24,116 nucleotides of DNA from a virus, in the IMG/VR virus record IMGVR_UViG_3300007541_000215, positions 1-24,116 of that record; one strand, given 5' to 3'. Shown one piece after another: positions 1,714 through 20,172 of this stretch. The position numbers and the translations under genes are program-made. The notes beneath the pieces are model-generated. The model saw only the letters and a list, made by a program, of their open reading frames with translations. It did no database searches and was not told where the DNA came from. Every line of letters begins with the position of its first letter. Position 1 is the first letter of the stretch.

Positions 1714-2917
1714 CGATATTCTCCTCTTGTTCTATACGGGTTTCTAATTCTTTATCTTCACCACTATCTGCTTCTACTGAGGTGACTACGTCTACTTCTT
1801 CACCATCATCAAACAATCTAATTGTTTCTACACCAAGTGGTTCTGTATAACCATTAATACCAAATATTTCTTCAAATACTGAAAGAATATCCGATTGTTT
1901 TGGTTTAATTACTGTTTTTTGGAAGTGTGCATAAGCATCTAACATTTCACTTCTACCTCCAAGTTGTCCTTCGGTTTTGATACCAAGTAACATAGGTGAG
2001 GAGATTCTGTGTGAGGTTAAAATCTTTTGAACCACCATATCATTAACTGTGGTGTAATAACCATCTGCACCATTTTGAGGAATTGGTGTGATGACTGGTG
2101 CTTCCTCTTTACTTGCAACATCCATATACATTAAAGAACCAGCATTATCTGAACCTGCGTATGCTTCTCTTAATTGTCTTTCAATTGTTTCTCTTTCTTC
2201 TGCATCTGCATTGGTAAATGTAGTAATTGAAAGGGATGGTGCTAAACCATTTTTAATATTATTTTTATGGAAGTTATCTACTTCCGCATCTAATGAAATT
2301 ATATTTAAACCACCTTGATAATCAGGTAGAGGATAATATTTCATACCTGGTCTATAATTGTGGAAATAATAAATTTGTGAGGGTGAACTTCTATCTAATC
2401 TGTTAAATCTTGGAATATAAACCAAATCTTCATCTTTAATTCTTAATCTACCTTTATTGTTAAATTCTGATGAAATATAATATCCTGGTACAATTCCTCT
2501 TTCATTCATACGATGTGCTCTGACGTATGAGAAATCAATGTGATATACATCTGTAATTTTGGTTCTATCGTTTGACCAAATTACTTCTAAGGCAAAACCA
2601 CCGAAAAGTGTTCTATCTAAAGCAACTTTCTTAAATACATCATTCCAAGATTCACCATCTCTGTTTGCTATTTCTAATACTTCTTCGTTTGTGGTTGTAA
2701 TACCGTTACCAACTATACCATCAACAATCGCATTGATTGCAGTTGCGTTAATTGAGGATTTGTTATAAAGTTCAATAACATAGTTAGGGAAATCATTCAT
2801 ATCCCCATAATAAACTACCTTACCTTTATCATCCTCAAATACCTTTACAGATGGGTAATAATAATTCCCATACTTCGGTATAATTGTCATTTTATGTTTA
2901 TTTAGTTTTTTTTCCAT
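1682..2917 (-). CDS. Phage portal protein
   Basis: This 411-residue protein fits the phage portal family. It has a clip/wing-type N-terminal half ('GDMNDFPNYVIELYNKSS', then 'AINAIVDGIVGNGI'), a central region 'ALDRTLFGGFALEVIW', the 'HRISSPMLLGIKTEGQLGG' segment near residues 305-325 that recurs in short portals, and an acidic C-terminal tail. The portal is the dodecameric ring at the capsid vertex through which DNA is packaged and ejected. The start has an AAGGAT SD. The gene lies downstream of the capsid and tube genes rather than before protease and scaffold, as is usual. No terminase large subunit is visible in this window. Confidence 0.88.
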   Translation of the reverse strand: MEKKLNKHKMTIIPKYGNYYYPSVKVFEDDKGKVVYYGDMNDFPNYVIELYNKSSINATAINAIVDGIVGNGITTTNEEVLEIANRDGESWNDVFKKVALDRTLFGGFALEVIWSNDRTKITDVYHIDFSYVRAHRMNERGIVPGYYISSEFNNKGRLRIKDEDLVYIPRFNRLDRSSPSQIYYFHNYRPGMKYYPLPDYQGGLNIISLDAEVDNFHKNNIKNGLAPSLSITTFTNADAEERETIERQLREAYAGSDNAGSLMYMDVASKEEAPVITPIPQNGADGYYTTVNDMVVQKILTSHRISSPMLLGIKTEGQLGGRSEMLDAYAHFQKTVIKPKQSDILSVFEEIFGINGYTEPLGVETIRLFDDGEEVDVVTSVEADSGEDKELETRIEQEENIDAKYIDDIRG

Positions 2918-2919
2918 TA

Positions 2920-3480
2920 TTATCCTTGGTAAATCTTAAGTACCGCATCTTCATTTGGACTCACATATACAATTTCTTGTGATGCTGAACCTGTTAATAA
3001 ATTAATGACCTCACTATCACTAATATATTGTTTTAAAATTGGTTCAACTGAACCAGATATAAATGCTATATCACTATATTTTAGAACACCTGTGTTTTTT
3101 ATGGTTTCTGCATTTATACTACTATTCCATGGAAAATTAGCTGTGTTCCATTTATAAGTAGTAGTTCCCCAAACTTCTTGTTTTGGTTCATCACCATAAT
3201 ATACTTCTAAATCATAAGTTGTTCCAGGTTGTAAATCAACTAATCCATTAGGATAAGAATTTGAACCTGTAATTTTGAAACCTAATGTAATCCATCTTGG
3301 ATTATTTGGGTTTGTGAAAGTTCCCTTTGTAATCAAAGTAGAACCAGTATCATTTGCCATTGTTTGGTACATCAGAATGGAAAATACTTTTCCACTTTCT
3401 AATGAACTTGTTACTAAAGGAGTATCCGTTTCCTTTTGGAAAGTAATTTTATTTTCTTGATTATCTTTTAAATAAATCAT
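2920..3480 (-). CDS. Putative virion structural protein of unknown function
   Basis: A 186-residue protein between the tube-like gene and the portal gene, with an AAGGAG SD before the ATG at 3480. It is rich in beta-type sequence: 'MIYLKDNQENKITF' at the start, a middle segment with 'ITLGFKITGSNSYPNG' and 'LQPGTTYDLEVYYGD', and an extended C-terminus ending 'DAVLKIYQG'. The pattern resembles an Ig-like or BppU-N-like beta sandwich that supports fibres in Bacteroidetes phages, but I do not recognise it firmly. A strong hairpin lies just upstream in the mRNA, which may set its expression apart from the capsid and tube genes. Confidence 0.5.
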   Translation of the reverse strand: MIYLKDNQENKITFQKETDTPLVTSSLESGKVFSILMYQTMANDTGSTLITKGTFTNPNNPRWITLGFKITGSNSYPNGLVDLQPGTTYDLEVYYGDEPKQEVWGTTTYKWNTANFPWNSSINAETIKNTGVLKYSDIAFISGSVEPILKQYISDSEVINLLTGSASQEIVYVSPNEDAVLKIYQG

Positions 3481-3499
3481 ATTACTCCTTAGTTAAATA

Positions 3500-3537: not shown

Positions 3538-4074
3538 TTATTGAGAGATTGTTATACCTGACAATACTGAACTTAAATCTGTTCCAGTGATGATATCAGC
3601 TGGATTAGGTTCTTGTGCAGTGAAAGTCAAAGTATAAGAATTCGCATCTCCAATCGCGGTTCCCGTCTGACCTTGTCCTCCGTTTAACTGAGCACCATAC
3701 ACTCGTCCAACATAAAGGTACTTAGAACCTGATTGGTTGTTGTTAGTTTCAACAACCATTTTTAAATCAGGATTCTGAGCAAGAATCTTCATTTGGTTAC
3801 GAATATTAGTTTGCAGTTTTAAGAAAACAGCATTAACAGTAGCTTCATAGAAGACTGTTCCATTTTCAGTTGAACCATTAATGGTTTCTGTGAAATCAGA
3901 AGTTCCTCTAGTTAAGTCAAACTGATAAAATACACCTGAACCAGTAATTCCTGAAATTTCGTTAGAAGCTTCAGTAATTGTGGTTACAGATCCAGACAGG
4001 ATATACAACGCTTTAATACCTCCCGCATTATCGCGGCATCCGAGACTGTGTCCCGCAGTTATATCACATGACAT
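3538..4074 (-). CDS. Probable major tail tube protein ('CDIT' type structural protein)
   Basis: This 178-residue protein starts 'MSCDITAGHSLGCRDNAGG' and continues 'IKALYILSGSV'. The Cys-rich N-terminus followed by a GG-I/L-K-A-L/V-Y strand is a signature I associate with abundant structural (tube-like) proteins of Bacteroidetes phages. The rest is beta-rich with 'FYQFDLTRGTSDFTETI', a helix 'AVFLKLQTNIRNQMKILAQ' and 'SYTLTFTAQEPNPADI', consistent with a tail-tube fold. It is encoded right after the capsid gene and has the best SD of the window, suggesting high expression. The family resemblance is from memory; it could instead be another major virion protein. Confidence 0.6.
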   Translation of the reverse strand: MSCDITAGHSLGCRDNAGGIKALYILSGSVTTITEASNEISGITGSGVFYQFDLTRGTSDFTETINGSTENGTVFYEATVNAVFLKLQTNIRNQMKILAQNPDLKMVVETNNNQSGSKYLYVGRVYGAQLNGGQGQTGTAIGDANSYTLTFTAQEPNPADIITGTDLSSVLSGITISQ

Positions 4075-4080
4075 TTTATA

Positions 4081-4087
4081 TCCTCCT
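4081..4087 (-). promoter_or_regulatory. Consensus Shine-Dalgarno of the tube-like gene
   Basis: The minus strand reads AAGGAGGA six bases before the ATG at 4074. This matches the 16S rRNA anti-SD as well as any site can and is the strongest of the SD-type sites that precede most genes between 5675 and 1123. Such sites are rare in Bacteroidetes mRNAs. Confidence 0.75.
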
Positions 4088-4106
4088 TTTTAGTTATCAG
4101 TTAATA

Positions 4107-5024
4107 TTAAGCTAAGTTGTTAGTTACCCAGAATTCAGGGTATGCAACTTGGACTCCGAGTTTTGTCACGATACGGTGCTTCAGTTTATCTGAGTTGATA
4201 TCGTAAAATAATTGGAAGTTATCCAAATCAGAAACCAAATCAGTACCTACAACGATATGACGAGCTGGACCAGTTACGATTCTGTTAGAACCTGCTAAAC
4301 CAACTGTACCTACAATTGTAAGGTTAGTGAATGGGTGTTTCATTGACATCAATGAACCTCTGTTCTCTACTGATGCAGGGTCAAACCAGAAGTTGTTCTG
4401 AGTTCTTAACCATACAATGTATTTACGGAAGTTTGCAATTGACATGAATGTTGTTAAGTCATCTCTATCTTGTACATCTACTGCAAGAGCTTCAACTTGT
4501 CCATCAACGATATCACCGATGTTTGTTGAAGTTGGAGCTGAAGATGATACGAAAGTAGCACCTGAGCCAGAAGCCAATAGAATGTTAAGACCGTTGATAC
4601 AGTCACCTGAACCTGAAGCTGCTGTCCATAAGAAGATATCATTTTTCTTTTGGAAGTTAGCTACTAACTGAGAAGCATATTCTTCAGCGAATGCATAAGT
4701 TTCTGGATAAGAACCAGCTGGGCCTAAAAGACCGATGTATTTCTTATCTAAATCACGAAGACAAAGTCCATCGTGTGAAGAACGCTGACATACTTCTAAG
4801 TCACGTTGTGTATAAGTTACTGAACCAGACTCGGTAGATACACATCCGAATCCATCTTGAATTACAAGGTCAATTTCTTGTAAGTTTAGGGGTTCTTTAT
4901 ATTTTATCCCCTCGCGTACCGTTACATATTCTGCAGTTGAACCAGCAATAACAGATTTTACAAGTAATTCACCTGCAAGTTCGTTATTGAAATCAGCCAA
5001 TGCAGCAACATTAAATCCTGCCAT
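4107..5024 (-). CDS. Major capsid protein
   Basis: This 305-residue protein lies immediately after the scaffold gene, the usual position of the major capsid protein, and has an AAAGGAG SD. Length and composition fit a small HK97-fold capsid protein: an N-terminal helix ('FNVAALADFNNELAGELL'), a central part with 'AFAEEYASQLVANFQKKND' as a spine-helix-like segment, and a C-terminal beta-rich P-domain-like part ending 'VAYPEFWVTNNLA'. Several Cys residues ('GFGCVS', 'LEVCQRSSHDGLCLRD') are present. It would form the icosahedral shell. Assignment rests on context and general features, not on a confirmed family match. Confidence 0.78.
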   Translation of the reverse strand: MAGFNVAALADFNNELAGELLVKSVIAGSTAEYVTVREGIKYKEPLNLQEIDLVIQDGFGCVSTESGSVTYTQRDLEVCQRSSHDGLCLRDLDKKYIGLLGPAGSYPETYAFAEEYASQLVANFQKKNDIFLWTAASGSGDCINGLNILLASGSGATFVSSSAPTSTNIGDIVDGQVEALAVDVQDRDDLTTFMSIANFRKYIVWLRTQNNFWFDPASVENRGSLMSMKHPFTNLTIVGTVGLAGSNRIVTGPARHIVVGTDLVSDLDNFQLFYDINSDKLKHRIVTKLGVQVAYPEFWVTNNLA

Positions 5025-5042
5025 GATTATTTCTCCTTTGAA

Positions 5043-5675
5043 TTATTTTTTACGAGCTTTCAGAATTCTTTCGAATTGAGCTTTCTTTTCCTCATTGCGA
5101 GGTTCGAAAGTTAAATCTACTTTTGCTGAACGTCCGTAAGATTGTTTTTTGTTAGTAATTGTTTTTTCTGCAGCTGGTTGAGCACCAAACTCTTCCTTAA
5201 CCGCATTGATTTGGGTTGTAAACTCTTCTTTTAAAGATTCCATTTGAGTTTTAAATTCAGATGAAAGAGCTTTAATGAGTTCTTCATGAATAGAAAGAGT
5301 TTCTTCAGACATATCTTCTTCGATACCTTCTTCGTACTCTTTATCTTCATCTTCTGCTTCCACTTCAACTTCTTCTGCTATAATTTCAGTGATTGAACCA
5401 CCTTCCGTGCGAATGGAGACACCTCCCTCCAACGCGTGTTCACCATCTGGAGCTGGTACATTACCATCTGGTGTTACAACGAAAATTGGTAAACCAACTG
5501 CAAGTTCATCTCCCTCATAGACAAGGGTTAATTCGCCATCAGCTGATTTTATCTCACCAAAAGTTTGTTCAGTAGTTTCTTCTACTGTCTCTTCAGACAC
5601 AGTTTCTTCTACTGCTGGAGCATCTACAAGATTGAAGTGTTTTTTAACTAATTGTCTTAGTTCTTCTTTGTTCAT
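5043..5675 (-). CDS. Capsid scaffolding protein
   Basis: This 210-residue protein is strongly charged: a short N-terminal helix, a small beta module around residues 37-98 ending 'PAPDGEHALEGGVSIRT', an acidic linker (residues 99-125), a predicted coiled coil (about 126-165, repeating EEF-type heptads) and a basic C-terminus 'RILKARKK'. Acidic middle, coiled coil and basic tail between protease and major capsid genes are typical of scaffolding proteins, which template the shell and are then removed by the protease. A TAGGAGT SD precedes the start. The beta module resembles the C-terminus of the preceding protease gene product. Confidence 0.72.
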   Translation of the reverse strand: MNKEELRQLVKKHFNLVDAPAVEETVSEETVEETTEQTFGEIKSADGELTLVYEGDELAVGLPIFVVTPDGNVPAPDGEHALEGGVSIRTEGGSITEIIAEEVEVEAEDEDKEYEEGIEEDMSEETLSIHEELIKALSSEFKTQMESLKEEFTTQINAVKEEFGAQPAAEKTITNKKQSYGRSAKVDLTFEPRNEEKKAQFERILKARKK

Positions 5676-5708
5676 TTTTGACTCCTATTTTGGTTTTTAA
5701 ATTAGTGA

Positions 5709-7643
5709 TTAGAACGAACCTACCTTTGCCTTTGAATCTACAACTACTAACGTCTCTCCATTAGTCAACTTATATCTTCCATCAGGCATAATAGCTTTTC
5801 GCTCACCATCTTCTAGTATGAAAACTACCAAGGTTTCGTGGTCTATTACGATTTCAGTTCCACCTTCAGTAGTTCTGTAATAGAATTTATGTTTACTTGC
5901 ATTGATAATTTTATCTGCGAAGTAACCTTCAACAGAATAACCTTTCACAAGGCCAGTTTTAACATAGTTATTCCATACATTCTTATTACGTACTTTCATG
6001 ATACCCATCCAAGTTCCTTTAGGGTATTGTTTTCCTGTCAGTACGTATGATTTATCTTTTTCTGAATCATCAACTAACCAAGATTCCACAAGGGTAATAT
6101 CATCTAACTTAGAACCATCTGCGTGTTCATAGTTGACATTATCTTGGTATTTGTTTTCCATATATTTGTAGGCGATAGATTCGATAGTATCTTCTGAAAA
6201 ATACACGAAATAATCACCGTTGATATCATCATATCGATAAATTAATTTCTTTGGTACCATTAAAGGCCCAACCAATAATTGTTTTTCTTTACTTTGTTCT
6301 GCAAAGTTTGAAGTAATTACACCTGCTGTTTGTGCTACACTTTTACCGTTTGGATTACGGTTCATGGTTGGTATTGGATTTACTGATGTTGCTTCATCTT
6401 CTGATTGCTCAAATTGAGTTATCTCTTTACCATCATCAGCTTTCCACTTTCTTAATCTTGTCCAATAATGTCTACATCCATAAGAACCTTTGTAAGTAAA
6501 GATATCATAGATACCGAATTCAGAATTCTCACCTTGAATGGTAAGTTTGTTGATATCTTCTTTACGATAAATTAAATCTTTATCTAACATTCTTTTACAG
6601 AAGGTTCTATTCTTAGAATCTCTTGGACCTGTATATTGGTATCTTATTTGAAATTTACCATAATCTTCAAGACTGGAAAGATTGGGTTTAGAAGATATTG
6701 CGAACTGTTGTTCATCTTCTACAATAACCCAACCTTGTTTTTCCAAATCTTTCCTACTCTCTCCTACCTCAAATAATTTATTGAGTATCTTCTCTTGAGT
6801 TTCTATTGGTAAATCACTTATATTCTTTCTCTCATCAACGATGTCTTCTAACACGAGGTTTAGTATCTCTTCATCGAGATAATCTCTTATAACCTCAATA
6901 TGCCCATCCATATAGGATACATCGTGTTCCATTCCGAGTAGTTCATCGATTTCTTTCATCAAATCATAGAAATCATCAAGTAAAACTTGTGCTTCACCTA
7001 ATTGTTCTAATTCTGCTACTTTATTTTCGAGAACTTCTGCTTCTAATTTAAAAATATTATCTGCAATCTGTGCAGCTGAACGAATCATTCCCGCAGTATC
7101 TTCATCAGGGTTCATTTCCATTAAATGAGTAAAGGTTGCAACTGCACCTGGACAGATGTAAAAGTATTCAGTTTGATAACCTAATACATCTAATTCAAAT
7201 TGGAATGATTGTTTTTCTTTTCTGATTTGTTCTAATTTTCTTTGTGCCCATTCGATACCTTCATCACCACCCCAAGCATCCCACATCAGTTTACCACATC
7301 CTTCACCGTAAGGTGTATCTGAATTTTGTCTGTGTCTTTCAAATGCGGCCATTCTTGCAATAGTACCTTCTGAAATGGGTTCACCTTTGGCCAATTGGTT
7401 CGCACGTGCCTTACCCACGGCGGTACCGCAATCACCCCATCCATTTTCTTCTGCCCAATTTAATGCTCTTTGTGCATTTTCTTGTGCTGCCTTGGGATAG
7501 TCAGCATATGATTCGAATTTATGAGAGGAAAAATAATAGAAATTTTCTTCGTGTGCTGGATTTTCAACCAATGCCACAAAATCCACACCACTTTCTAAGT
7601 CTTCTTCGTTTATTTCTAATTTAATAATTCGAGGTGATTTCAT
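5709..7643 (-). CDS. MuF-like head protein fused to XkdF-type prohead protease
   Basis: A 644-residue multidomain protein. Residues 71-140 hold 'KARANQLAKGEPISEGTIAR' and 'DAWGGDEGIEWAQRKLEQI', an insert common in phage prohead proteases. Residues 334-397 hold 'RYQYTGPRDSKNRTFCKRML' and 'GCRHYW', like the C-terminal Cys/His part of MuF head-morphogenesis proteins. Residues 455-577 match the XkdF-like serine protease family: 'LLVGPLMVPKKLIYR', 'NYEHADG' with candidate catalytic His507, and 'KGYSVEGYF' with candidate Ser570. The C-terminus (about 615-641) is a small beta module with 'PDGRYKLTNGETL'. It likely cleaves scaffold and capsid during maturation. There is no SD, and the start lies 5 nt from a -10-like box. 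Fusion of these activities in one chain is notable. Confidence 0.8.
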   Translation of the reverse strand: MKSPRIIKLEINEEDLESGVDFVALVENPAHEENFYYFSSHKFESYADYPKAAQENAQRALNWAEENGWGDCGTAVGKARANQLAKGEPISEGTIARMAAFERHRQNSDTPYGEGCGKLMWDAWGGDEGIEWAQRKLEQIRKEKQSFQFELDVLGYQTEYFYICPGAVATFTHLMEMNPDEDTAGMIRSAAQIADNIFKLEAEVLENKVAELEQLGEAQVLLDDFYDLMKEIDELLGMEHDVSYMDGHIEVIRDYLDEEILNLVLEDIVDERKNISDLPIETQEKILNKLFEVGESRKDLEKQGWVIVEDEQQFAISSKPNLSSLEDYGKFQIRYQYTGPRDSKNRTFCKRMLDKDLIYRKEDINKLTIQGENSEFGIYDIFTYKGSYGCRHYWTRLRKWKADDGKEITQFEQSEDEATSVNPIPTMNRNPNGKSVAQTAGVITSNFAEQSKEKQLLVGPLMVPKKLIYRYDDINGDYFVYFSEDTIESIAYKYMENKYQDNVNYEHADGSKLDDITLVESWLVDDSEKDKSYVLTGKQYPKGTWMGIMKVRNKNVWNNYVKTGLVKGYSVEGYFADKIINASKHKFYYRTTEGGTEIVIDHETLVVFILEDGERKAIMPDGRYKLTNGETLVVVDSKAKVGSF

Positions 7644-7676: not shown

Positions 7677-9587
7677 TTATGATACAGTTCTACGAGAGTT
7701 AATCTTAGCCTCAGCTTCTTGTGAAGTATTAACATCACCTGTGGTAACATAAGCACGTATTGTTCCTTGTCCTTTAAACGTTGCCTCTGCAATATCAATT
7801 TGATTGACTCCTTGTGTTGCTGGATTAATTCCGTTTGTTGTGTTTTGAGGAGTACGAACACTTGGTATAGAAGGTGCGGGTGCACCTGCACCTCCTTTAT
7901 TCGGTGCACCAGGAACCTTAGTAGATATAATCTTTTTCACATTTAATAAACCTGCAAGAATTACAGTACCTGCTGCAATTGCACCAAATGGAGGTGGATA
8001 GGTTGCGAGTGCTTTGGTTGCACCCGCGTAAGTATCAATCGTTGCTTGAGCAACTGCAAGTGCTTTACCTGCTGCGGTGTTCTTACCTATTGCTTCTGCA
8101 ACAGTTCCTAACGCATTAGATATAATACCTAATTTTGCTTCTTGTTGTGCTTGTTCAATCTGTAATCTTGCTGCAGCAGTTTCTTTATCAAATGCAACTA
8201 AGGCTTGATTAGTTGCTTTATTTGCAGCTAATTCTTCTCTTTGTAATTCTCTTTGTTTATCGAAAAGAGCAAGTTCATCTTCGAAGGTAATTGCATTGAG
8301 TTGTTTTCTTAAATTAAAATCAGCTAATAGATACTCAAGTTCTTCTGTTCTTTTTGCAGATTGTTCTTCTAATAATTTCTGAGCATCTTCTTCATCTTTT
8401 TGTTTTTTCTCAAGAGCCTGTTGTTCTTCTACTTCTTTTAATTTAGTATTGTAATTTTCTAATGCCTGAAGTTTGATTTGATTTTTAAGTTCTTCATTTA
8501 CCTTTAACGCATCAATTTCTTTAAATTGTCTTTCTAATTGTAGGGCTAATCTATCTTCTTCAAATACTGCTTCTAAATCTCGTTTCTCATCTTCGTATTT
8601 TTGTAATAATCCTTTTGCCTTTTCATTATCAGCTTTTATTTCATCTTGTCTTTTTTGTAATTCAGCTTTGAGTTTATCAGTTTTTTCTTTTTCTCTCTTC
8701 GCATACTCATCAGCTTCTTGTTTTTTTATACCAGCCTCAAATGCTGCAAGATTTGCAATTGCATCTTTTCTTTCTTGAGATTCTTCTTCAGTTAGTTCAA
8801 TAAGTTTTTTAAGTTTCTCTCTTTCAAGTTCAACAGTATCTTCTCCTGCTGCCTTTCTTACCTTTAACTCATTATCTATATCTTTTATTCGTTGGTCTGT
8901 TGCTTCTTTAAATTTCTTTGCAGCTTGTTCTTCATCTGTTGCAACTAAACCAATGGCTTGACCTATTGCTTTAAAGAATCCAACTGTTTTTTGTAAAATA
9001 TTGTTAAGTGGTTCAATAGATTTGATTACTGATTTAATTTTATCGTTAAATAAAACAAATCCTGCAACTACTAAACCGATTGCAGTTACTATTAATCCTA
9101 TGGGGTTTGCTCTTAATACTGCATTAAATGCTTGTTGTGCTACAGTTGCAATCTTAGTTGGACCAGGTAATTTACCAATAAATTGTGATAATTGACTTAC
9201 CCCTTCACTTACATCCTTTAATCCAATACCGAATGCAATGGCTGATGCTGCCTTTTCTTCAAATTCACCAAACTTTTCTGATTCTATACCAAGTAAACCT
9301 AATGCACCAACTGTTGCTTGGGTAGAACCTGCAAGAGTTTTAATTGCACCATCTAAACCTCTGATTTTATCTTCACCAGTAATACCTTCAATTTGTTTGT
9401 TGATATTACCAATCTCTTTATTTAAACCTTGTGCAGATTTACTTAAATCATCAAAAGCTTCACTACCTGGTTCAACTTCTTTTAATTGTTTGTTAATATT
9501 ATCTAATGCAGACTCTAACTCTCCAAGTGTCTTTGCAGAATTAGCATCATCAATCAGAATTTTATATTCAATAGTTTTTTGAGCCAT
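7677..9587 (-). CDS. Tail tape measure protein
   Basis: This 636-residue protein has tape-measure architecture: helical N-terminus (1-110), hydrophobic segment 'NPIGLIVTAIGLVVAGFVLF' at about 161-180, a long charged coiled coil rich in Lys/Glu/Gln (about 215-480), a second hydrophobic stretch near 495-560 with 'GKALAVAQATIDTYAGATKA', and a Gly/Pro-rich tail. Tape measure proteins set tail length and are ejected with the DNA; at about 1.5 angstrom per residue this would mean a tail near 95 nm (inference). It is first in its transcription unit, separated from the other tail genes by the glycosyltransferase and bS21 modules. There is no SD; the ATG at 9587 is seven bases after a TATAAT box. Confidence 0.85.
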   Translation of the reverse strand: MAQKTIEYKILIDDANSAKTLGELESALDNINKQLKEVEPGSEAFDDLSKSAQGLNKEIGNINKQIEGITGEDKIRGLDGAIKTLAGSTQATVGALGLLGIESEKFGEFEEKAASAIAFGIGLKDVSEGVSQLSQFIGKLPGPTKIATVAQQAFNAVLRANPIGLIVTAIGLVVAGFVLFNDKIKSVIKSIEPLNNILQKTVGFFKAIGQAIGLVATDEEQAAKKFKEATDQRIKDIDNELKVRKAAGEDTVELEREKLKKLIELTEEESQERKDAIANLAAFEAGIKKQEADEYAKREKEKTDKLKAELQKRQDEIKADNEKAKGLLQKYEDEKRDLEAVFEEDRLALQLERQFKEIDALKVNEELKNQIKLQALENYNTKLKEVEEQQALEKKQKDEEDAQKLLEEQSAKRTEELEYLLADFNLRKQLNAITFEDELALFDKQRELQREELAANKATNQALVAFDKETAAARLQIEQAQQEAKLGIISNALGTVAEAIGKNTAAGKALAVAQATIDTYAGATKALATYPPPFGAIAAGTVILAGLLNVKKIISTKVPGAPNKGGAGAPAPSIPSVRTPQNTTNGINPATQGVNQIDIAEATFKGQGTIRAYVTTGDVNTSQEAEAKINSRRTVS

Positions 9588-10154: not shown

Positions 10155-10316
10155 ATGAAAACTTGGAAATACTTAACTAATGAAGATTATCATAGTTGGA
10201 TAAAAAAGATTAATAACCCGTCACTTAAATGGAAATTAATTTCTCAGTATAGAAGTGGTAGACCTTTACTTTATACTGCTTATCTTAAACTTTTATCTAA
10301 CCACTTAAAGAAATAA
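10155..10316 (+). CDS. Small hypothetical protein (53 aa)
   Basis: ATG at 10155 to TAA at 10316 encodes a 53-residue basic protein starting 'MKTWKYLTNEDYHSWIKKIN' and ending 'LKLLSNHLKK'. It is rich in Trp, Tyr and Lys and probably helical. No SD is visible, but this is also true of the other plus-strand genes. Its 3' end overlaps the promoter-like element of the bS21 gene. Codon use looks normal for the window and the residue pattern is protein-like, but it resembles no family I know, so expression is uncertain. Confidence 0.45.
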   Translation: MKTWKYLTNEDYHSWIKKINNPSLKWKLISQYRSGRPLLYTAYLKLLSNHLKK

Positions 10317-10346: not shown

Positions 10347-10583
10347 ATGGCATCAATAGTATCTGTTACTAAAAGAAAAGGGGAAGATTTCAATAAATTA
10401 CTTGCAAGATTCAAAAAGAAAGTAAAAGAATCAGAACATTTGTTAGAATTACGTAAAAGAAAAGAATACATCAAACCTTCTCGTAAGAAATATATTCAAA
10501 GACAAGAAGCAATTAGAGCACAAAAACTGTTACAAAAACAATTAGATTACCAAGATGGAAAAATCAAATCAATGGGACCCTGA
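10347..10583 (+). CDS. rpsU: Ribosomal protein bS21 (phage-encoded)
   Basis: This 78-residue basic protein fits the bS21 family end to end: an N-terminal strand 'ASIVSVTKRKGEDFNKLLAR', then 'RFKKKVKESEHLLELRKRKE' and 'YIKPSRKKYIQRQEAIRAQK' with the typical R-F-K-K, E-L-R-K-R and K-P-S motifs. bS21 binds the 30S platform next to the anti-SD of 16S rRNA. Viral copies are known from several aquatic and huge phages. There is no SD in its short AT-rich leader. The C-terminus continues about 15 residues beyond the conserved part and overlaps the next gene by 29 nt. It could replace host bS21 on ribosomes during infection. Confidence 0.9.
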   Translation: MASIVSVTKRKGEDFNKLLARFKKKVKESEHLLELRKRKEYIKPSRKKYIQRQEAIRAQKLLQKQLDYQDGKIKSMGP

Positions 10584-10902
10584 GTACTCCTACAAAGAAA
10601 ATCAGCACTATAAAAACTTTAGTGATTCAAAAGAAGAAATAAAATCTAAATATCCTTCAGAAATTTTCAATAATATTGCAGCTTATGGTAGGGGTAAATC
10701 ACAAGATTTAATGTTGGAACAATATCTTTCAGGTAATCATAGAGAATTACATAAGCAATATCTTAGAGAACTTGCTGATTTAATTTTTGAACCTAATGGT
10801 GCATTTCAGCACTTAACTTGGGATATGATATCAGAAGTTGAAAAGATAGAGATGGAAAGAAAAGCAAGAGGAAGGTTAAAAAGACAAGTTGATGTTTTTT
10901 AA
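10555..10902 (+). CDS. Hypothetical protein downstream of bS21
   Basis: A 115-residue charged protein starting 'MEKSNQWDPEYSYKENQHYK', with helices around 'SKEEIKSKYPSEIFNNIAAY' and 'LMLEQYLSGNHRELHKQYLR', and a basic C-terminus 'RKARGRLKRQVDVF'. I do not recognise a family. It overlaps the bS21 gene by 29 nt, so the two are probably translated from one mRNA and may act together. Its stop codon shares the bases TTAA with the stop of the convergent glycosyltransferase-operon gene, leaving no room for a terminator between the units. Confidence 0.65.
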   Translation: MEKSNQWDPEYSYKENQHYKNFSDSKEEIKSKYPSEIFNNIAAYGRGKSQDLMLEQYLSGNHRELHKQYLRELADLIFEPNGAFQHLTWDMISEVEKIEMERKARGRLKRQVDVF

Positions 10903-11663
10903 CTCATCACTTTAAGATACTCTCTCCAATTGCACTTGATAATTTGAAAATCATTTGGATTTTCAATATACAAGATATCAAATATCTTCTCATCAGACCC
11001 GATATATTTCAAGTGTAACGAACGATTGATAATATTGTATATCTTGATACCAATTTCTTGAATACGTTCTTTAGGAACGATAAATGAACCTCCTTGAATG
11101 AATCTCATCTGTGATAAAGAGTGGTGTTCAATATCGTGAATAGAAATATTCTCATGATGTGAAAAGAAAATTGGCTTATCACCGATTTTATGAGTTGGAA
11201 ATGGTTTGTTAACCGATTGAATATCTTCTCGATAACAAGCAGCATCAGTCCAGATATAATGAGTACCATTTATTAATTCACTACCTTCTTTTAACCACCA
11301 TATCTTATTGAACATCATAATATTGTACCAAGGTTCTAACATCTCTGGCACTTGAAACTGAATTTTGTTTTTAAACTCTTCAGATTTCATTAAATCATTC
11401 AATGCTTCGTAATGTAACTTTGCTGCAGTACATTCTTCTTTAGTAGAAATAACAATCTTGGTTTCATCAGAATATTTACTTCTCATCTCTCGAATTTTAT
11501 CTTCAAATTTCTTTTCTGTGAAGATTACCATAGGTGATTGAATAGCAAGAGTTCTTTCCATCCAATCTAAGTACCCACCATACGATTGTGTATGGTGAGT
11601 CCACTTATCTCTACCAATATCAAAGAGTGCAGTAATAATAACTGGTTTTATATCCAATTCCAT
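10899..11663 (-). CDS. HtrL/YibB-like glycan-related protein
   Basis: A 254-residue protein whose N-terminus 'VIITALFDIGRDKW', followed by 'YLDWMERTLAIQSPMVIFTE', fits the HtrL/YibB family, found in polysaccharide and LPS gene clusters and thought to have a glycosyltransferase-like fold. 'YIWTDAACYRED' near residues 137-148 could supply the acidic metal-binding motif, and 'LSQMRFIQGGSFIVP' near 183-197 resembles the product-side loop. It is last of four overlapping genes, overlapping the previous one by 16 nt, with only a weak SD. It probably acts in the host cytoplasm on a sugar acceptor; acceptor and donor are unknown. Confidence 0.75.
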   Translation of the reverse strand: MELDIKPVIITALFDIGRDKWTHHTQSYGGYLDWMERTLAIQSPMVIFTEKKFEDKIREMRSKYSDETKIVISTKEECTAAKLHYEALNDLMKSEEFKNKIQFQVPEMLEPWYNIMMFNKIWWLKEGSELINGTHYIWTDAACYREDIQSVNKPFPTHKIGDKPIFFSHHENISIHDIEHHSLSQMRFIQGGSFIVPKERIQEIGIKIYNIINRSLHLKYIGSDEKIFDILYIENPNDFQIIKCNWREYLKVMS

Positions 11664-12409
11664 TCTATCTTTTGATGTTTGTGTTTTATATTAATTTCAT
11701 CAACGTTAAAATAATCAGAAGTACCATCTTTCTTAAAAAGAGAACCAAGAGTATGTCCGTATCCATTTAAGATAGTAGGAACCCAACCTTCTGAGTAACC
11801 CCATTTACCTGCAAGATTATTTTGTGTAATATTCCAAAGGGTGTTTAACGCATTGTGTGAAATTCTAACTACTGGAAAGAATGAACCATACCATTGGAAA
11901 ATCCAAAATGGTAAATGGTCTCCCTCACCAGGAAATCTTTCAAACCACATATGTTGTGATGTAGTATCTGCATCTAAAGTTGGTAGGTGTTTTTTATAAT
12001 CTTCTTTTTGAAAAACAAACCAAGAAATAAAATCTTCTTTTTTATCATCAAAAGAATTAATAAATCCTTTCCAATTATCACAAGTTACATCATCATCAAA
12101 GAACCAATAATAATCATAATCTTTATCTCTATTAGCAAAATAATGTAACATTCTAAAATGTGGATAAAACCAAATTAAATTACGATTGCCAAAAGAATTC
12201 CAATAATGTCTTGGTGATGGTTTATCTGGACCTGTATAACCAATGGTTTTTTTCATTTCTTCTTCGGTATAATGTAAATTTTTAAAATTATCTTTTACAC
12301 CATTCTGAGAATGATACAACCAAATAAAATCATCATGAAAATCTTTCCAATGATGTTGCCATCCGTGATGGGTATCATCACACGTTGATACAATAAATTT
12401 ATTTAACAT
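11648..12409 (-). CDS. Putative glycosyltransferase (GT-A type)
   Basis: A 253-residue protein rich in Trp, Tyr, His and Asp. The segment 'DYDYYWFFDDDVTCDNW' near residues 97-113 looks like the strand-DXD motif that binds metal and nucleotide sugar in GT-A enzymes. Downstream 'FWIFQWYGSFFPVVRISHNA' and 'GKWGYSEGWVPTILNGYG' resemble acceptor-side segments of DUF3405/DUF707-type enzymes. The start has a GGAG SD and overlaps the preceding gene by 11 nt, so it belongs to the same operon. The family is not recognised with certainty. Confidence 0.65.
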   Translation of the reverse strand: MLNKFIVSTCDDTHHGWQHHWKDFHDDFIWLYHSQNGVKDNFKNLHYTEEEMKKTIGYTGPDKPSPRHYWNSFGNRNLIWFYPHFRMLHYFANRDKDYDYYWFFDDDVTCDNWKGFINSFDDKKEDFISWFVFQKEDYKKHLPTLDADTTSQHMWFERFPGEGDHLPFWIFQWYGSFFPVVRISHNALNTLWNITQNNLAGKWGYSEGWVPTILNGYGHTLGSLFKKDGTSDYFNVDEINIKHKHQKIEWNWI

Positions 12410-13220
12410 ATCTCTCCGTTAATTTTTGATTCCAATCAGGTATTCTATTGAATTGATGTACAATATCAAACATTTTACCTTGACCATTGATAATAACTCC
12501 GTTTACTTCTTGGGCTTCACCCCATCTTTCTTGATAATGCCGTTTAAATCCCCATGCTTCATAAAAATCAGTAGGACCACCAACCGCACAATGTAAAACC
12601 CAATTAGATTTTGGATTTAACAATTGTATTTTCCATAGAGGTTGTTCGTTTAAGATAATGTTTAATGCTGCCTGGTCTCTAATATCATGTCCTTTTTCAC
12701 CACTCATCGTAATGGTTTCCATTTCTTTAAGTAGTTCAACTAACTTATCTCGTTTACCACCCATGACACCTGAACAATAAATTAATTCATTTCTTACTAA
12801 TTCTACTTTATCAGGATAAGATTTCTGCATTACATCTAAGTTCCAAGGTTCTTCAGAATGGTAAATTCCTTCGGTACCAATAGTTAAATCCCAACCTTTT
12901 AGTGTAATAGTAGAGAATGGGTCATTTTGAAACATAACATCAAATACATCAGTAACAAGTGCGTAATCCCAATCTAATTTTTCTAAGGTTTGTATCTGAT
13001 ATTTTAACCTTACATTGTTTACAGTTTCATCTAACTCTAACCAATAGGGTGCTGTAGTGATTCCCATCGTGTGTAAGAGGTTCAATTCATTTAAGGTAGG
13101 GTTGAGTACCACTAAACAAACATCACCCTTTGAAACTTCTTTAAATGAGTTTGACCAAACTTTAATTTTATCAATATTTGTTAACACATTGTTAACACAT
13201 CCAATTAATCCTTTTTTCAT
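12399..13220 (-). CDS. Putative glycosyltransferase (GT-A type)
   Basis: A 273-residue protein with 'DWDYALVTDVFDVMFQNDPF' at about residues 83-102, giving a D91-x-x-D94 metal/sugar-nucleotide site, 'IYCSGVMGGKRDKL' near 147-160 and 'HDIRDQAALNIIL' near 178-190, a layout seen in small capsule- or LPS-type transferases. It also has 'VHQFNRIPDWNQKL' near the C-terminus, where a conserved His is common. It overlaps the preceding gene by ATGA and also has an AAGGA SD. The acceptor is not evident; virion proteins or host surface glycans are both possible. Confidence 0.72.
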   Translation of the reverse strand: MKKGLIGCVNNVLTNIDKIKVWSNSFKEVSKGDVCLVVLNPTLNELNLLHTMGITTAPYWLELDETVNNVRLKYQIQTLEKLDWDYALVTDVFDVMFQNDPFSTITLKGWDLTIGTEGIYHSEEPWNLDVMQKSYPDKVELVRNELIYCSGVMGGKRDKLVELLKEMETITMSGEKGHDIRDQAALNIILNEQPLWKIQLLNPKSNWVLHCAVGGPTDFYEAWGFKRHYQERWGEAQEVNGVIINGQGKMFDIVHQFNRIPDWNQKLTERYVK

Positions 13221-14416
13221 ATAAATCCTTCTATTTTATCTACCCAACCTTTTGATTTAGAATACGGCCAGACAATCCACTTGTGTGGTTTAGGACCTGT
13301 ATATTCTTCCCATATAGTAATATGGGGCTGGTTAAGTATGGTAACGTTCTGTTCATCTCTACGGTGTAATGCTACACCGTTTTTATCTTCGTAAATAACT
13401 GCAAACCAATCGTAATCATCGTGAGTTAATCTATCGAAAGTAAATTCGATTGGATGTCTAAAAACAGTATTAAACGGTTCATCTGATTTTTTAGGTTCTC
13501 CATTTTCTCTAATAGATAACTGAAAACTTCTATTACTAAAACGAATTCCCATTTCTTCTTCCCAATCTTGTAAAGTTCTAATTGGGCCAAAGCCATATTC
13601 ACCCCACTCTATATCTGCAGTTTCACCATCTACTCCTAACAGATAACGATTTCTTTGGTGTGATTTGTTATTTCTATCTACCCAAGTTGCATCATCATCC
13701 CATTGTTTGGTTCTACCTTTTCTTGTGTACTCGTGCCATGCAATAACTTTATGTGGATGAAAGATATCATAACCCCAAGTATATGCACGAACTGCAATAG
13801 AAATTTCTTCACCATGAAAATAATAATTTGGGTCATGTGGAACTTCTTTACAAAATTGACCAAGAGTAAATGCAAAGTGTGCTGAATAAAACCTACCTCT
13901 CTTTGGTTTGTCATTATTTTCCATGTAGTAAGGTAAGAAAAATACTGCACCTTCTGGAATAATTCTATCGAATGCCATACCCCACGGTGTGTTTACTCTA
14001 CTTTGTGGGTCATTAGAAGGGTCAAAAGAAGGAATGTAAGAGGTGATAAGTGGTTTATCCCATCCCTCCTCTTGTAACCCTTTAAACATTTGAATTAATT
14101 CAGTATCCCATCCTTCAACAAATCTGTGGTGTGAATCTAATTGTAAAGTATAATCTTCACCATCATACTTTTGTTGAATTTGATTTCTTGCCCAACACGC
14201 ACCTTGTGCCTCTTTGTAAGGAATGGGTATAATTGTAAATCTACACTTCTGTTGTAACTCTTCAGATATTACATCCCATTCATCTTCTTCTGAAAACTGA
14301 TGTGCTATACAAATGTGTAGATTTTGTGGATTATCCGCTTTATCTAATAAATCTTCAAGTGTAGGAACCAACTGTGGGTCTCTATAACTTGCAATTTGAA
14401 TAAAAATTGTATTCAT
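13217..14416 (-). CDS. GlcNAc-transferase family glycosyltransferase
   Basis: This 399-residue protein fits the Skp1-type hydroxyproline GlcNAc-transferase family (GT60-like, Pfam GlcNAc family). It begins 'NTIFIQIASYRDPQLVPTL', has 'AQGACWARNQIQQKYDGEDY' and the D-x-H type motif 'LQLDSHHRF' (D94, H96), then 'NYYFHGEEISIAVRAYTWGY' near 197-216 and 'HPHKVIAWHEY' near 220-230, all typical of the catalytic domain. The C-terminal 130 residues are an extra domain of unknown role. Eukaryotic relatives modify a hydroxyproline; acceptors of bacterial and phage relatives are mostly unknown. It is first of four overlapping genes, with an AAAGG SD and a promoter-like element just upstream. Confidence 0.85.
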   Translation of the reverse strand: MNTIFIQIASYRDPQLVPTLEDLLDKADNPQNLHICIAHQFSEEDEWDVISEELQQKCRFTIIPIPYKEAQGACWARNQIQQKYDGEDYTLQLDSHHRFVEGWDTELIQMFKGLQEEGWDKPLITSYIPSFDPSNDPQSRVNTPWGMAFDRIIPEGAVFFLPYYMENNDKPKRGRFYSAHFAFTLGQFCKEVPHDPNYYFHGEEISIAVRAYTWGYDIFHPHKVIAWHEYTRKGRTKQWDDDATWVDRNNKSHQRNRYLLGVDGETADIEWGEYGFGPIRTLQDWEEEMGIRFSNRSFQLSIRENGEPKKSDEPFNTVFRHPIEFTFDRLTHDDYDWFAVIYEDKNGVALHRRDEQNVTILNQPHITIWEEYTGPKPHKWIVWPYSKSKGWVDKIEGFI

Positions 14417-14441: not shown

Positions 14442-14466
14442 ATAATATATAAAACTCATGATTGGT
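14442..14466 (-). promoter_or_regulatory. Putative phage promoter of the glycosyltransferase operon
   Basis: The minus strand reads ACCA (14466-14463), 15 nt, TATTAT (14447-14442), matching the ACCA-N15-TATWAT pattern. It lies in the 49-nt gap after the LamG protein gene. The expected leader is about 18 nt and carries an AAAGG SD before the ATG at 14416, unlike the nearly leaderless sites. Confidence 0.55.
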
Positions 14467-17108
14467 TATTGACAAGCTCCAGATGGTCCAGTATAAAAAC
14501 CAGAAATAGCACCACCCGATGGGAATGGACTAGTTCTTGAACAAATTGTTTTACTTGGCTCAGAACAACTTACAGTTGTTGTAGCAGGCATACCAGTTTG
14601 ACAATTTGTATATGTCCATGTAGTTGTAAGTCCTGTAGGACAAATATCTGTATCAAAAAATACTGTATAATTACTACAATTTGGTGTAGGTGATGGTGTT
14701 GGACTAATCGTAGGCGTGGGTGAAATTGTTGGTGTTGGAGTCGGACCAGGTACAACATCATATACAGCTGCTTCTGTTAAATATATATCAGAAATTTCTT
14801 GACCAGTTAAAACTCTTCTATACATTCTTGCAATACCCATTGTAATATTACCTCTCTGTGGAGTTGCACTATTATAAGGTAAAGTATTTATTGAGAATAC
14901 TCCGGTGTCATCAAAATCAGACCATCCATTAAATCCAGCAGATGTACCTTGATATACCAATGCACCATTTATATAAAAAGTAAAATCACCTTGATTTCCT
15001 GGACCAGTTGAGGTTGGTTGTGCAGTAACTGCAACATGATACCAATTACCTACGGTCATAGTATGTTTGGTGGTAGTTTTAGTTTCATTACTTTTCCAAG
15101 TTGAATAAACTTTATTAGTTCCAACTTCTGCATTAATTAACCAGATATCATTATCAGTATTACCAAGTCGTGACCAACCAACCAAAGTTGCATCAGTTCC
15201 TGTAACTGAACTATCTAATCTTACCCAAGTTTCGATAGTACCACCCACATTACTAAAATCAGTACCACCTTCTGTTGTACTAAATCTTGCTGATTGATTA
15301 GTATTTAATGCCCATCCTTTATACGGAACTTTAGTTGCCTCACTACCTGTTAGAATTAATGCTGCTCCTAAGACACCTTGTTCATTATACCAATATTGGT
15401 CATCGTATTTGTATCCATTATAACCCCAAGTTCTCGCCAAATTACTTGTAACAACTAAGGTTGGAGTTGGTGTTGGTGAAACCGTAGGGCTTGGTGTTGG
15501 TGAAATTGTTGGTGTTGGGGTTGGTGATGGACCAGGGAATACAAATCTTTGATAACAGAATGCATCAGGTGAATTAATTACACCATAAAGTGGATATGAA
15601 TTATCAACTTGAACTACAACTTCTAAACCATCATAGAACCAAAATACAGATGCATTAAAAGTATTATATAAAGTACAGACTAAAGTACCATCTGAACCAT
15701 ATACATAAATTCTATCTGCACTCATTCCATATACTTGATTTTGAAGTGGTGAACTTACACCCGTCATCAAAGTTACAAGATTTCTTGCTAAGTTAGCATT
15801 ACCACTACCTTGCCAGATTGCTTTAAATACTCCATTTCCTCCACCAGAAATTGAAATATCATGTGTACCAAATCCACAAGTACCTACTTGAGTAGGAGTT
15901 GGTGTTGGAGTTGGACCAGGAGTGGTTGGAGTTGGTGTAGGAGTAGGGCATAAACCTACTGAATAAATTTCATAAGAGAATGGCCCATCAAGTCTTATAG
16001 GTGTAGTTTGACTACAAACATAAATTTCAGAATCTGGTGTTACTACAAGTTGTTCAGGAGTACCTGTTGAACAGTTAGTATATTCAACTGTTAATAATTC
16101 ATCAAAACTTCTGTTAGCAACCAAGAACTCTAAACAAACTTGAGTACTCGTAGGAGTTGGTGTAGGCCCAGCAGTTGGGGTTGGGGTTGGGGTAGTACAC
16201 TCTCTATCATCAGTAACATTACCATTATTATCAACTAAAATTGTTTTAGTTGGAGTACCTGTGGTAGCAGTAATTCCAAACCAAGTATTTCCACCTTGTA
16301 AACGAGTACCATTAGTATCAGTATAAATAACAGTACCATTACCTGCTCCAACTTGTGCAAATGCAGATTTATTAGAATAAAGAGTTGTATCACACGTATC
16401 ACCACACGCCAGTGCAAATGTAGGATAACCACTTGTTGTTCTATCACCAACATCATAAATAGGTGGTGGTGTCGGTGTAGGACCAACTCCACAATTACCT
16501 GAACTTAATATTTCACCAAATTGGTCTACTTCAAACCAACTACCATTGCCAGTTTCACCTGAGATAGGTGCATAATAACCAGGGTCTGCTGGAGTACAAC
16601 CTTGTGAATCTTCATATAATACACTACCAACAATTGGTATTTCAGTTACATAAACTGTTCTTTGAGTTCCACCAGAACAAGCAATACCTGAGTTTGAAAC
16701 ATCATATCCACAAATAATTGCTTCAATAATATTCTGACACGGTGTAGGTGTTGGAGTTGGGGTAACCAATGCAGTTTGAGTTGGTGTTGGTGTAGGGCCA
16801 AAAGTTGGACTTGGGGTAGGTGTGGCCGTTGGGATTATACCCGTGGGTGAAGGAGATGGTGTAGGAGTTGCAGTTGGAACTGGTGCACCAAAGGTAAACT
16901 CAGTTCCACACACACCTCTTGATTTTAATTTATAAATTGTTGCTTCATTACCAACAACAGCAATAAAAGTAGAACCTTGAGAGGGTAACAATAAAGGATT
17001 ATCTACTGATGCAGTATAATTAATCCCATCGGTACCATAAAATAAATCATATAGAGGACCGGAATCGTTTTTCTCTGTTAAGGTTACTATAATACTTTTA
17101 TTTGCCAT
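14466..17108 (-). CDS. Mosaic tail/adhesin protein with Pro-Thr linkers and a LamG domain
   Basis: An 880-residue modular protein. The N-terminus (1-73) 'MANKSIIVTLTEKNDSGPLY' is a beta domain seen in similar phage proteins. Pro/Thr/Ser linkers follow at about residues 74-123, 304-321, 386-406, 524-550 and 785-807. Between them sit two related Cys modules (about 124-300, each with G-x-V-I/L-Y-x-D and an ending C), two related modules with a YTNC-x-T-G core (about 322-385 and 808-880), and a laminin-G/concanavalin-like domain (about 553-780) with 'GGTIETWVRLD' and 'GNWYHVAVTAQ'. LamG domains often bind glycans, so a receptor-binding or decoration role fits. An AAAGGAT SD precedes the start. 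The linkers are candidate O-glycosylation sites. Confidence 0.72.
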   Translation of the reverse strand: MANKSIIVTLTEKNDSGPLYDLFYGTDGINYTASVDNPLLLPSQGSTFIAVVGNEATIYKLKSRGVCGTEFTFGAPVPTATPTPSPSPTGIIPTATPTPSPTFGPTPTPTQTALVTPTPTPTPCQNIIEAIICGYDVSNSGIACSGGTQRTVYVTEIPIVGSVLYEDSQGCTPADPGYYAPISGETGNGSWFEVDQFGEILSSGNCGVGPTPTPPPIYDVGDRTTSGYPTFALACGDTCDTTLYSNKSAFAQVGAGNGTVIYTDTNGTRLQGGNTWFGITATTGTPTKTILVDNNGNVTDDRECTTPTPTPTAGPTPTPTSTQVCLEFLVANRSFDELLTVEYTNCSTGTPEQLVVTPDSEIYVCSQTTPIRLDGPFSYEIYSVGLCPTPTPTPTTPGPTPTPTPTQVGTCGFGTHDISISGGGNGVFKAIWQGSGNANLARNLVTLMTGVSSPLQNQVYGMSADRIYVYGSDGTLVCTLYNTFNASVFWFYDGLEVVVQVDNSYPLYGVINSPDAFCYQRFVFPGPSPTPTPTISPTPSPTVSPTPTPTLVVTSNLARTWGYNGYKYDDQYWYNEQGVLGAALILTGSEATKVPYKGWALNTNQSARFSTTEGGTDFSNVGGTIETWVRLDSSVTGTDATLVGWSRLGNTDNDIWLINAEVGTNKVYSTWKSNETKTTTKHTMTVGNWYHVAVTAQPTSTGPGNQGDFTFYINGALVYQGTSAGFNGWSDFDDTGVFSINTLPYNSATPQRGNITMGIARMYRRVLTGQEISDIYLTEAAVYDVVPGPTPTPTISPTPTISPTPSPTPNCSNYTVFFDTDICPTGLTTTWTYTNCQTGMPATTTVSCSEPSKTICSRTSPFPSGGAISGFYTGPSGACQ
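14687..16885 (-). repeat. Dispersed Pro-Thr-coding repeats in the LamG protein gene
   Basis: Stretches at about 16739-16885, 16141-16197, 15888-15949, 15457-15535 and 14687-14752 encode alternating Pro-Thr with some Ser and Gly. They are nearly the same at DNA level (plus strand GGTGTTGG, GGTGTAGG and variants) and similar to the block in the neighbouring gene. They are in-frame linkers that could recombine with one another. Confidence 0.8.
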
Positions 17109-17118
17109 CTCTTATCCT

Positions 17119-20100
17119 TTATAAACTTCCACTACAAGTTGCGCAATCACCATATACATCTTCTACCAAGAAGGTATATTCTTTTTGTGTTGTTTCTCTT
17201 AATATTGTATAACAAGCATCACCATCTGGGAAACCAACTCTAACTACATCACCAGTTGATAATGAACTTGATGCTGCAATCAAATCAGAGTTTGCAAATG
17301 GATACACACAAGAAAATCCTTCATAATAAATAACAGAATCTGTTAAAGAATCTACTTCAACACTAAATGTTGCGGGTGATGAGTATGGTCCCCATCCAGC
17401 AAAGATACTTGCATTTGCTGAACTAAATGAACCAGCAGATGCAGTGTAGAAAAATAAATTTGAAGGTGCAGTATCTGTTTCTACTATGCTACCATCACGT
17501 TTCCAATATATTCTGTTATTAGGTGATTCATTGAATTTAAATGTTTGACCAATTGGTGCTTTTAATTCAATTTCTAATGCATAGAAGCCAGAATCTGTAA
17601 TTTCAGGTAATACCTGATTTGTTTTAAATGTAAATGAACCACTTTGTAAACTTGCTGTAGTTTCTAATAATTTAACACGTTTACTTGGGTCATTTCTTCT
17701 ATAATACAAACTACCACTTTGGAAATTAACAAATCCATATATCGCAGGTTCTAAATTAATCGTCATCTCAATTTGTTTCGGCCCCAAAGTAGGTGTTGGC
17801 GTAGGTGATGGGGTGGGAGTTGGAGACGAAGTTGGCGTTGGCGAAATTGTTGGCGTAGGGGTAGGCGTATTCGTTGGGCCAGGAGTACTCGTTGGCGTAG
17901 GCGTAGGACTACTCGTGGGCGTGGGTGAAATTGTGGGTGATGGAGTTGGTCTTGGTGTAGGCGTTACCGTTCCTTGAACTGTAAAATCAAAATCACAATC
18001 TAATGAATATAATTGTGGGAATAAACGAATTAACTCTACTGTTGCAACATCATCTTGTGAAATGTTGAACCCTTTTATTTTATTAATACGATATCTTTGG
18101 TTCTTAATAAACACCTGGTCATTAAGTTTGATATCTTTATATTCTTCTTTATCAAATTTAATATCAAGAGTTACCTTGTGTGATTCATCCCAATAAATGG
18201 AATCAATATATGTTTTCCAATATTGTTCAAAATTAGTAATACCATTTGCAGGGTTAAAATTAGATGGAATTAATTTCGCGTAATCATTATTGAAATGTAA
18301 ATCTAAAGTAGAATCTGCAACCGCAGGTAAATCAGATAAGTTACTAATAGTACTATAAGAATTAATCACAGTTTGTGCAGAACCAGCATTACCAATGTAA
18401 ATAATAGTACCCGAAGGTAAAGTGTTATCTACTTTATATCCAATTCTTGGTTTAAATTTAAATGATTTTTGTTGTGAGTTTTCAAATTTGTATAAGTGTG
18501 GATATACAAAAGAAGAACCTACATTAATTTGTAATGAAGAACCACTTGTTTCAGAACCAAGAATAGTTGGTGCAAAGAATGAACCAATGGTTGAAGTACC
18601 TTGTGAAATATTATTCTCTGCAATAACTCGTTGTGTACCATACTGATAATTTGGAATAGATTCAATTGCTAATTTAGAAAATCTATCATTATCATCTTCG
18701 TTTTTAAATAATAATTCTTTTCTTTGTTCATCAATTGTATGGTTAATTGATTTACGAATCGCAGTATTCCATTTATCTGTCCAATCTTTTCTTTCACCAT
18801 CTCTAATCCAATCAGCAAATGGTTCAATTTTGATTGCATTGGTTTCTGTATTGATTGGTGTTAAGATAAGGTTAAATTGTTCAATAAAACCTCTCATCAC
18901 ATCTAAGGATTTTGTTTGTGAATCCCATTGTTGTGAAAAATCTACATTAACTCCATCAAAAGTAATTGGAGCTTTAGTTACGTTAAAATAGTTATTGTAA
19001 TTTAATACAGTAGTTTGAGCAGATGGACCACCATTAAGGTGTTCAACTTTTAATCGAGCATAAATTGGTACACCACCTGCGTATTGAAATTCATGAGATA
19101 AAGCTATATCAATAAACAAATCTCCACCAGGTTCACAATAAATTGTTGGTGAAAATGCTTGTATAAAAGAACCATACATTAGTTCTAAAGTAACCGTAAC
19201 TTCTGAACTTGTATTTATCGTTGGATTTATAAAATATGCAGCTACATCAAACTTATAAGTTCCTGTTGAAGGAACTGTATATACATATGTACTTGTATTG
19301 TAGTTATCACCTGGGTCAGAAACTTCAAAATTAAATTGTAAGTTTGCATATTCCGTATCACCACTCGAAACCGTTGGAATAGATTGTTGTATTGTTTGTA
19401 AAACCGCAGCAGTATTTTGTACACCACTACCAACCCCTAATGTATCTTTTGGTTTTGGTAAAACATATAAGTTTTCAAATGCAGTTGAATTGATAAAATC
19501 AGATTCGTATCTATATCCTACTTGTTCAAAAATAGTATCAATTACATTCTTTGCTTTAATTGCAGGTAAAAACTGTTTTGGTTGCATTGGAGTTTGTGGG
19601 TCTCCAATTTGTCCTGCTGTTGTACCTAATTGAATTCTTGGTTGTGTTGGGAAAGTAGAATTTTCATCAGTACCATAATCTGCGATAGGATAAAATACTG
19701 CACCATCTAATAAATTATTATCCCAAGAATTTATAATATTGGTTGGAGTCAATGAATGACTATACGCTGACCAATCTGCTTCTGAAATTAATTTAGATTG
19801 AAGTAAATCTTTAAACTGTACTACTTTATCAGATAATTGACATTTGTAAACCGTATATCCTCTTTCATCTGTAATAACTTCTAACAGTTGAAATTGTCCG
19901 TTTAAGACGGTTTCTCCATTCAAGATGATATAACCATCGATTGAATTATAAAACGCCGGTATATCTTGTGCTCCTACCTCGTATGCGTGTTTAAAGAAAC
20001 GGTTGTTATTCTTGGTACCAGGTAAATTAAAAGTTTGTGAACCAACACCAAAAAATTTACCAATTTTTTCATTCTCAATTGTAGAAATATCTAATCGCAA

Positions 20101-20172
20101 TGGAACATTGTTATCTATGTCCAAATCATAGGTAACACCATTATAAACAACTCTAATTAGTATATCTGTCAT
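17119..20172 (-). CDS. Large distal tail / baseplate protein with Pro-Thr linker
   Basis: A 1017-residue protein. Residues 1-730 look like the large distal-tail or Tal-like protein of Bacteroidetes phages: '[19 protein letters not shown]', '[20 protein letters not shown]' and later '[17 protein letters not shown]'-like text near the end of this part. A Pro/Thr/Ser linker spans about 734-796, then a C-terminal beta domain ends with a Cys pair 'DCATCSGSL'. It probably forms the tail tip and carries appendages. The gene begins with a TAATG stop-start overlap with the preceding gene and no SD, so translation is likely coupled. The same linker type occurs in the next gene product. Confidence 0.68.
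17786..17971 (-). repeat. Pro-Thr-coding minisatellite-like block in the distal tail gene
   Basis: About 62 codons of alternating Pro with Thr or Ser, including two copies of a [14 protein letters not shown] unit. The DNA is made of short variants of GGCGTTGG/GGCGTAGG (plus strand). It separates the N-terminal tail domain from the C-terminal beta domain. Confidence 0.85.

Follow-up and report, generated by a model that had tools for sequence, protein, structure and literature searches.

In Flavobacterium johnsoniae, the anti-SD of the ribosome is hidden by Tyr54 of bS21, a residue that stacks on A1534 and whose conservation is unique to Bacteroidia (PMC9976891). In a Y54A mutant, expression of a reporter with a strong SD was 70% higher in vivo and rpsU'-gfp output in vitro increased 3-fold, and F. 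johnsoniae ribosomes without bS21, or without its C-terminal part, favor strong SDs (PMC9976891). A strong SD before the bS21 gene is itself typical of Flavobacteriales. Phage bS21 genes are common, and replacement of host bS21 by a phage copy to favor phage mRNAs has been proposed earlier (PMC9723584, PMC7162821). In the bS21s of freshwater Bacteroidetes jumbo phages, the residue at the Tyr54 position is aromatic in 61 of 61 cases, which was read as preserving anti-SD blocking (PMC9723584).

The window analyzed here, the whole 24,116-base virus record IMGVR_UViG_3300007541_000215, comes from a tailed sea-water phage with kinship to Flavobacterium phages and contains a bS21 gene of another kind. 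Its open reading frame at 10347–10583 matches Ribosomal_S21 (PF01165) with 38.5 bits, above the curated cut-off of 27, and by this profile match is a genuine bS21, which we infer to be incorporated into ribosomes. The gene lies on the plus strand inside a block of virion genes, the flanking members of which are on the minus strand, and it belongs to a conserved cassette (53-aa gene, bS21, 115-aa gene):

10155–10316, plus strand: conserved 53-aa gene, cassette member upstream of bS21; homologues beside bS21 in G023, L013, L030, L043, and the L051 group
10347–10583, plus strand: phage bS21 gene, 78 aa (Pfam PF01165, E 9.7e-10; PHROG 21469, ribosomal protein S21)
10515–10517, plus strand: codon AGA for Arg57, facing F. 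johnsoniae Tyr54 in the ungapped alignment to the PDB 7jil bS21; invariant in nine bS21s of the phage group
10555–10902, plus strand: conserved 115-aa gene, cassette member downstream of bS21; homologues in the other clade A bS21 contigs

Among the several genes beside bS21 (10899–14416) are one for a GlcNAc-type glycosyltransferase (PF11397) and one for an HtrL/YibB-like protein (PF09612), and 14466–20172 encodes two large tail proteins in which Pro-Thr repeats (TPTPTP) run over long stretches.

The sequence-only reading of this DNA had placed Arg57 where flavobacterial bS21 has a Tyr after the KPS motif, and the alignment bears this out. A phmmer alignment of the window bS21 with that of F. 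johnsoniae (PDB 7jil) is ungapped through the KPS motif region and sets A55-I56-R57 opposite A52-A53-Y54; the lack of gaps, together with the recurrence of the motif A[IV]R in relatives, rules out an alignment artifact. All 80 Flavobacterium-type host bS21 sequences fetched have Tyr at position 54, where the window protein has Arg. The nine distinct bS21s of this phage group that were first aligned average 46% identity and share only seven invariant positions, Arg57 among them; the bS21 of lineage L394, added later, also has Arg, and that of one relative (G060/L361) has Tyr. Alignment with Bacteroidetes and phage bS21s thus puts Arg at the anti-SD-contacting site but does not make it exceptional: since Arg is the usual residue across the phage bS21 set and occurs in many cellular bS21s of the Bacteroidota phylum, from lineages outside class Bacteroidia, Arg57 is, judging from these sequences, not a special change.

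With gene starts called mechanically at the first ATG, 11 of the 20 called window genes have a 4-nt SD core in their leaders, compared with 2.2–2.3 expected from shuffled leaders. That comparison rules out chance as the source of the SDs, and the earlier claim that virion genes carry strong SDs holds. The sites include the following:

1721–1725, minus strand: SD AGGAG before the putative connector gene (1132–1713)
2923–2927, minus strand: SD AAGGA before the portal gene (1682–2917)
3485–3491, minus strand: SD TAAGGAG before gene 2920–3480
4082–4088, minus strand: SD AAGGAGG before the putative tail-tube gene (3538–4074)
5033–5038, minus strand: SD AAGGAG before the major capsid protein gene (4107–5024)
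5682–5686, minus strand: SD AGGAG before the putative scaffold gene (5043–5675)

The bS21 gene itself has no SD, as the sequence-only reading had it: its leader pairs at only −1.1 kcal/mol (the median for Flavobacterium rpsU is −19.8), and the other clade A bS21 leaders that were read are likewise without one. Pairing of the phage SDs is moderate, with a median of −6.3 kcal/mol and none below −13 kcal/mol, the level that McNutt et al. tie to rpsU autoregulation (PMC9976891), while Flavobacterium rpsU leaders reach about −20. These moderate strengths suggest that the anti-SD is well exposed, not that the SDs compete with the pocket. Two window genes without SDs, the tape-measure gene (7677–9587) and gene 22395–23114, share a TATAATNTA element that ends a few bases before the ATG; it is also present in leaders in G008, G022, G025, and G060, and the messages behind it may be leaderless or nearly so.

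A search with the window major capsid protein returned 80 related viral loci. In the SD-using clades (ten lineages), 47 of 59 leaders of six head genes carry an SD core, versus 3 of 39 leaders of the syntenic orthologues in eight SD-less relatives (Fisher 5e-13, a P value that overstates independent events because the sequences share descent). Clade A (capsid protein identity at least 78%) keeps the SD of the capsid gene leader, as does clade B (62–69%), where it is mostly AGAGGT; clade C (59–63%) has none. Head-gene SDs fall on the same genes, nearly all at a spacing of 4–10 nt, across diverged lineages. The SD-less syntenic relatives include prophages in a Flavobacterium panici genome (G074) and a Hymenobacter-like genome (G147, its name inferred from GC content and proteins), both of which carry a Tyr54 bS21; the count of SDs in Nonlabens phage P12024S was 0 of 30. 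Because head-gene SDs are frequent in the SD-using clades and rare in their syntenic relatives, SD use is most simply read as a trait gained in clades A and B, where bS21 occurs. A PF01165 search of 50 records (49 capsid relatives and one found via bS21 itself) identified bS21 in 13. With later searches included, bS21 lies on long contigs of SD-using lineages (clade A, L394, and G060), and the searched contigs of clade C yielded none. SD use is tied to this phage group more strongly than the sequence-only reading could see.

Two further observations concern genes outside the head module. A gene of about 175 aa (6019–6546 in G008, L217, with orthologues in clades A–C) resembles by eye a small sigma factor, and in several phages of clades A and B this putative sigma-like gene is preceded by an SD. 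In a Polaribacter MAG (G075), the normal bS21 gene has another beside it (C74:747–926), whose product shares 67% identity with that of F. johnsoniae; this extra copy is perhaps viral or contamination.

If the head genes acquired SDs, their translation requires an anti-SD that can be used. We favor, at a probability of roughly 0.4, the reading that bS21 is a takeover protein and that the phage lineage carrying it came to depend on SDs for late translation. The phage paralogue would replace host bS21 during infection, and by the most likely route, ribosomes carrying it would hold the 16S 3′ tail less firmly in the bS21–bS18–bS6 pocket, owing to Arg in place of Tyr54, to the divergent C-terminal region, or to both. 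SD-bearing late phage mRNAs would then be favored, and the SD-less bS21 gene would be made by unmodified ribosomes. The pattern suggests that this phage group re-tunes the host ribosome. The original proposal that phage bS21 exposes the anti-SD survives in part: Arg rather than Tyr, SDs that are conserved and apparently gained, an SD-less bS21 gene, and signs of Bacteroidota phage ancestry speak for it, but Arg is ordinary, one Tyr-bearing relative uses SDs, and some jumbo phages have Arg without SDs. Arg57 may help, though neither its need nor its sufficiency for the SD effect is established.

The alternative that survives best places clades A and B in hosts whose anti-SD is already free, either Arg-type Bacteroidota outside Bacteroidia or members of another phylum; the SDs and Arg57 would simply match the host, and bS21 would bring the same benefit as in other phages. 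We consider this a real possibility, if a doubtful one. An Arg-type, SD-using Bacteroidota host would make both Arg57 and the SDs ordinary, and some cellular Arg-type genomes do use SDs (8/16 in L334, 9/20 in L335, and 6/17 in L340). Among the matches listed, those cellular proteins of the phylum that match the window bS21 best all have Arg; bS21s like that of L011 occur in Methylophilales and Pelagibacter phages, and the moderate strength of the phage SDs is also consistent with a free anti-SD in the host. However, in a tree built without column 54, phage bS21s are separate from cellular Bacteroidota bS21s and do not group with the cellular Arg-type proteins, in both cases with modest support. 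Clade A bS21s are scattered among other phages in this tree, as if the gene had been exchanged between phages.

Gene content also argues against such a host. The virion module is present in synteny as prophages in Bacteroidota genomes with Tyr54, Nonlabens and Bacteroides phages head the portal matches among cultured phages, and in lipoproteins of clade A relatives the lipobox is followed by CSKDD or CSKES, much like the export signal C-X-K-(D/E)2 of Bacteroidota lipoproteins (PMC5080379). These features point to Bacteroidota for the lineage, and a host in that phylum is presumed for clade A. A capsid-profile scan of genome contigs yielded no prophages, and the prophages were located instead by portal and capsid profile in Bacteroidota genomes. 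Compared with 296 Flavobacteriales genomes, the window DNA gave no credible CRISPR spacer match; the matches were short and AT-rich or of low complexity, and one stretch of the tape-measure gene was hit again and again. Similarity of TerL to cultured phages was uninformative on host, and a lipoprotein match in a Flavobacterium genome was discarded because it lies within a tail gene. Small phage lipoproteins in G023 (L216), L367, L368, G065, and G064, which start CSKDD, CSKES, CTKDD, or CQKDV, are possibly lysis proteins.

A second alternative, which we judge unlikely, is that the anti-SD is freed without Arg57, either because host bS21 is depleted or destroyed or because the divergent helix or C-terminus of phage bS21 acts, leaving residue 54 incidental. 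The behavior of F. johnsoniae ribosomes that lack bS21 or its C-terminal part (PMC9976891) is consistent with such a route. So is G060, in which 9 of 24 genes have SDs against 2.8 expected despite a Tyr bS21, and so are the SD-using contigs G051 and G052 (21.5 and 27 kb, both fragments), in which no bS21 was seen. Arg is nevertheless kept in the group's other bS21 types despite high divergence and apparent gene exchange, which speaks against an incidental residue. Across other phages there is no correspondence between residue 54 and SD use (the jumbo-phage loci L186–L191 have an Arg bS21 and no SD excess), and Arg alone was rejected as a predictor of SD use. This mismatch would also suit an account in which bS21 and SD use are unrelated, the SDs being tolerated or relics of a past host and bS21 serving, say, ribosome maintenance or the countering of defense, but SDs kept on the same head genes in diverged lineages, with nearly all spacings in the 4–10 nt range, indicate current selection and make that account very improbable.

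Returning to the takeover reading, its fullest form holds that a phage ribosomal protein switches SD-blind Bacteroidota ribosomes to SD reading and that capsid-gene leaders were rewritten to exploit the switch. We offer this form only tentatively; if true, it would amount to a translational early-to-late switch through the swap of one ribosomal protein. What appears to be new is a bS21-bearing phage group that combines a non-aromatic residue 54 with evidently gained SDs, a combination that no paper found in the literature searched reports. The group provides natural contrasts: the same genes have SDs in some syntenic relatives and lack them in others, and the one bS21 residue for which F. johnsoniae mutants have been tested is either Arg or Tyr. 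These contrasts make the idea of a "specialized ribosome" directly testable in a laboratory strain.

Compared with described systems, the window bS21 is closest in setting to the jumbo-phage bS21s of Chen et al. 2022 (PMC9723584), with which it shares a position among opposite-strand virion genes and the proposed replacement of host bS21 late in infection. Unlike those proteins with an aromatic residue, it has Arg, and its phage is of another family, one in which head genes bear SDs. The bS21 of Pelagibacter phage HTVC008M (Mizuno et al. 2019, as cited in PMC9976891) is also a phage protein and enters E. coli ribosomes; its host is SAR11. The F. johnsoniae protein (McNutt et al. 2023, PMC9976891) is of the same family, and loss of its Tyr54 favors SD mRNAs, but it is cellular, has Tyr, and is encoded by an autoregulated gene with a very strong SD, whereas the phage gene in the window has none.
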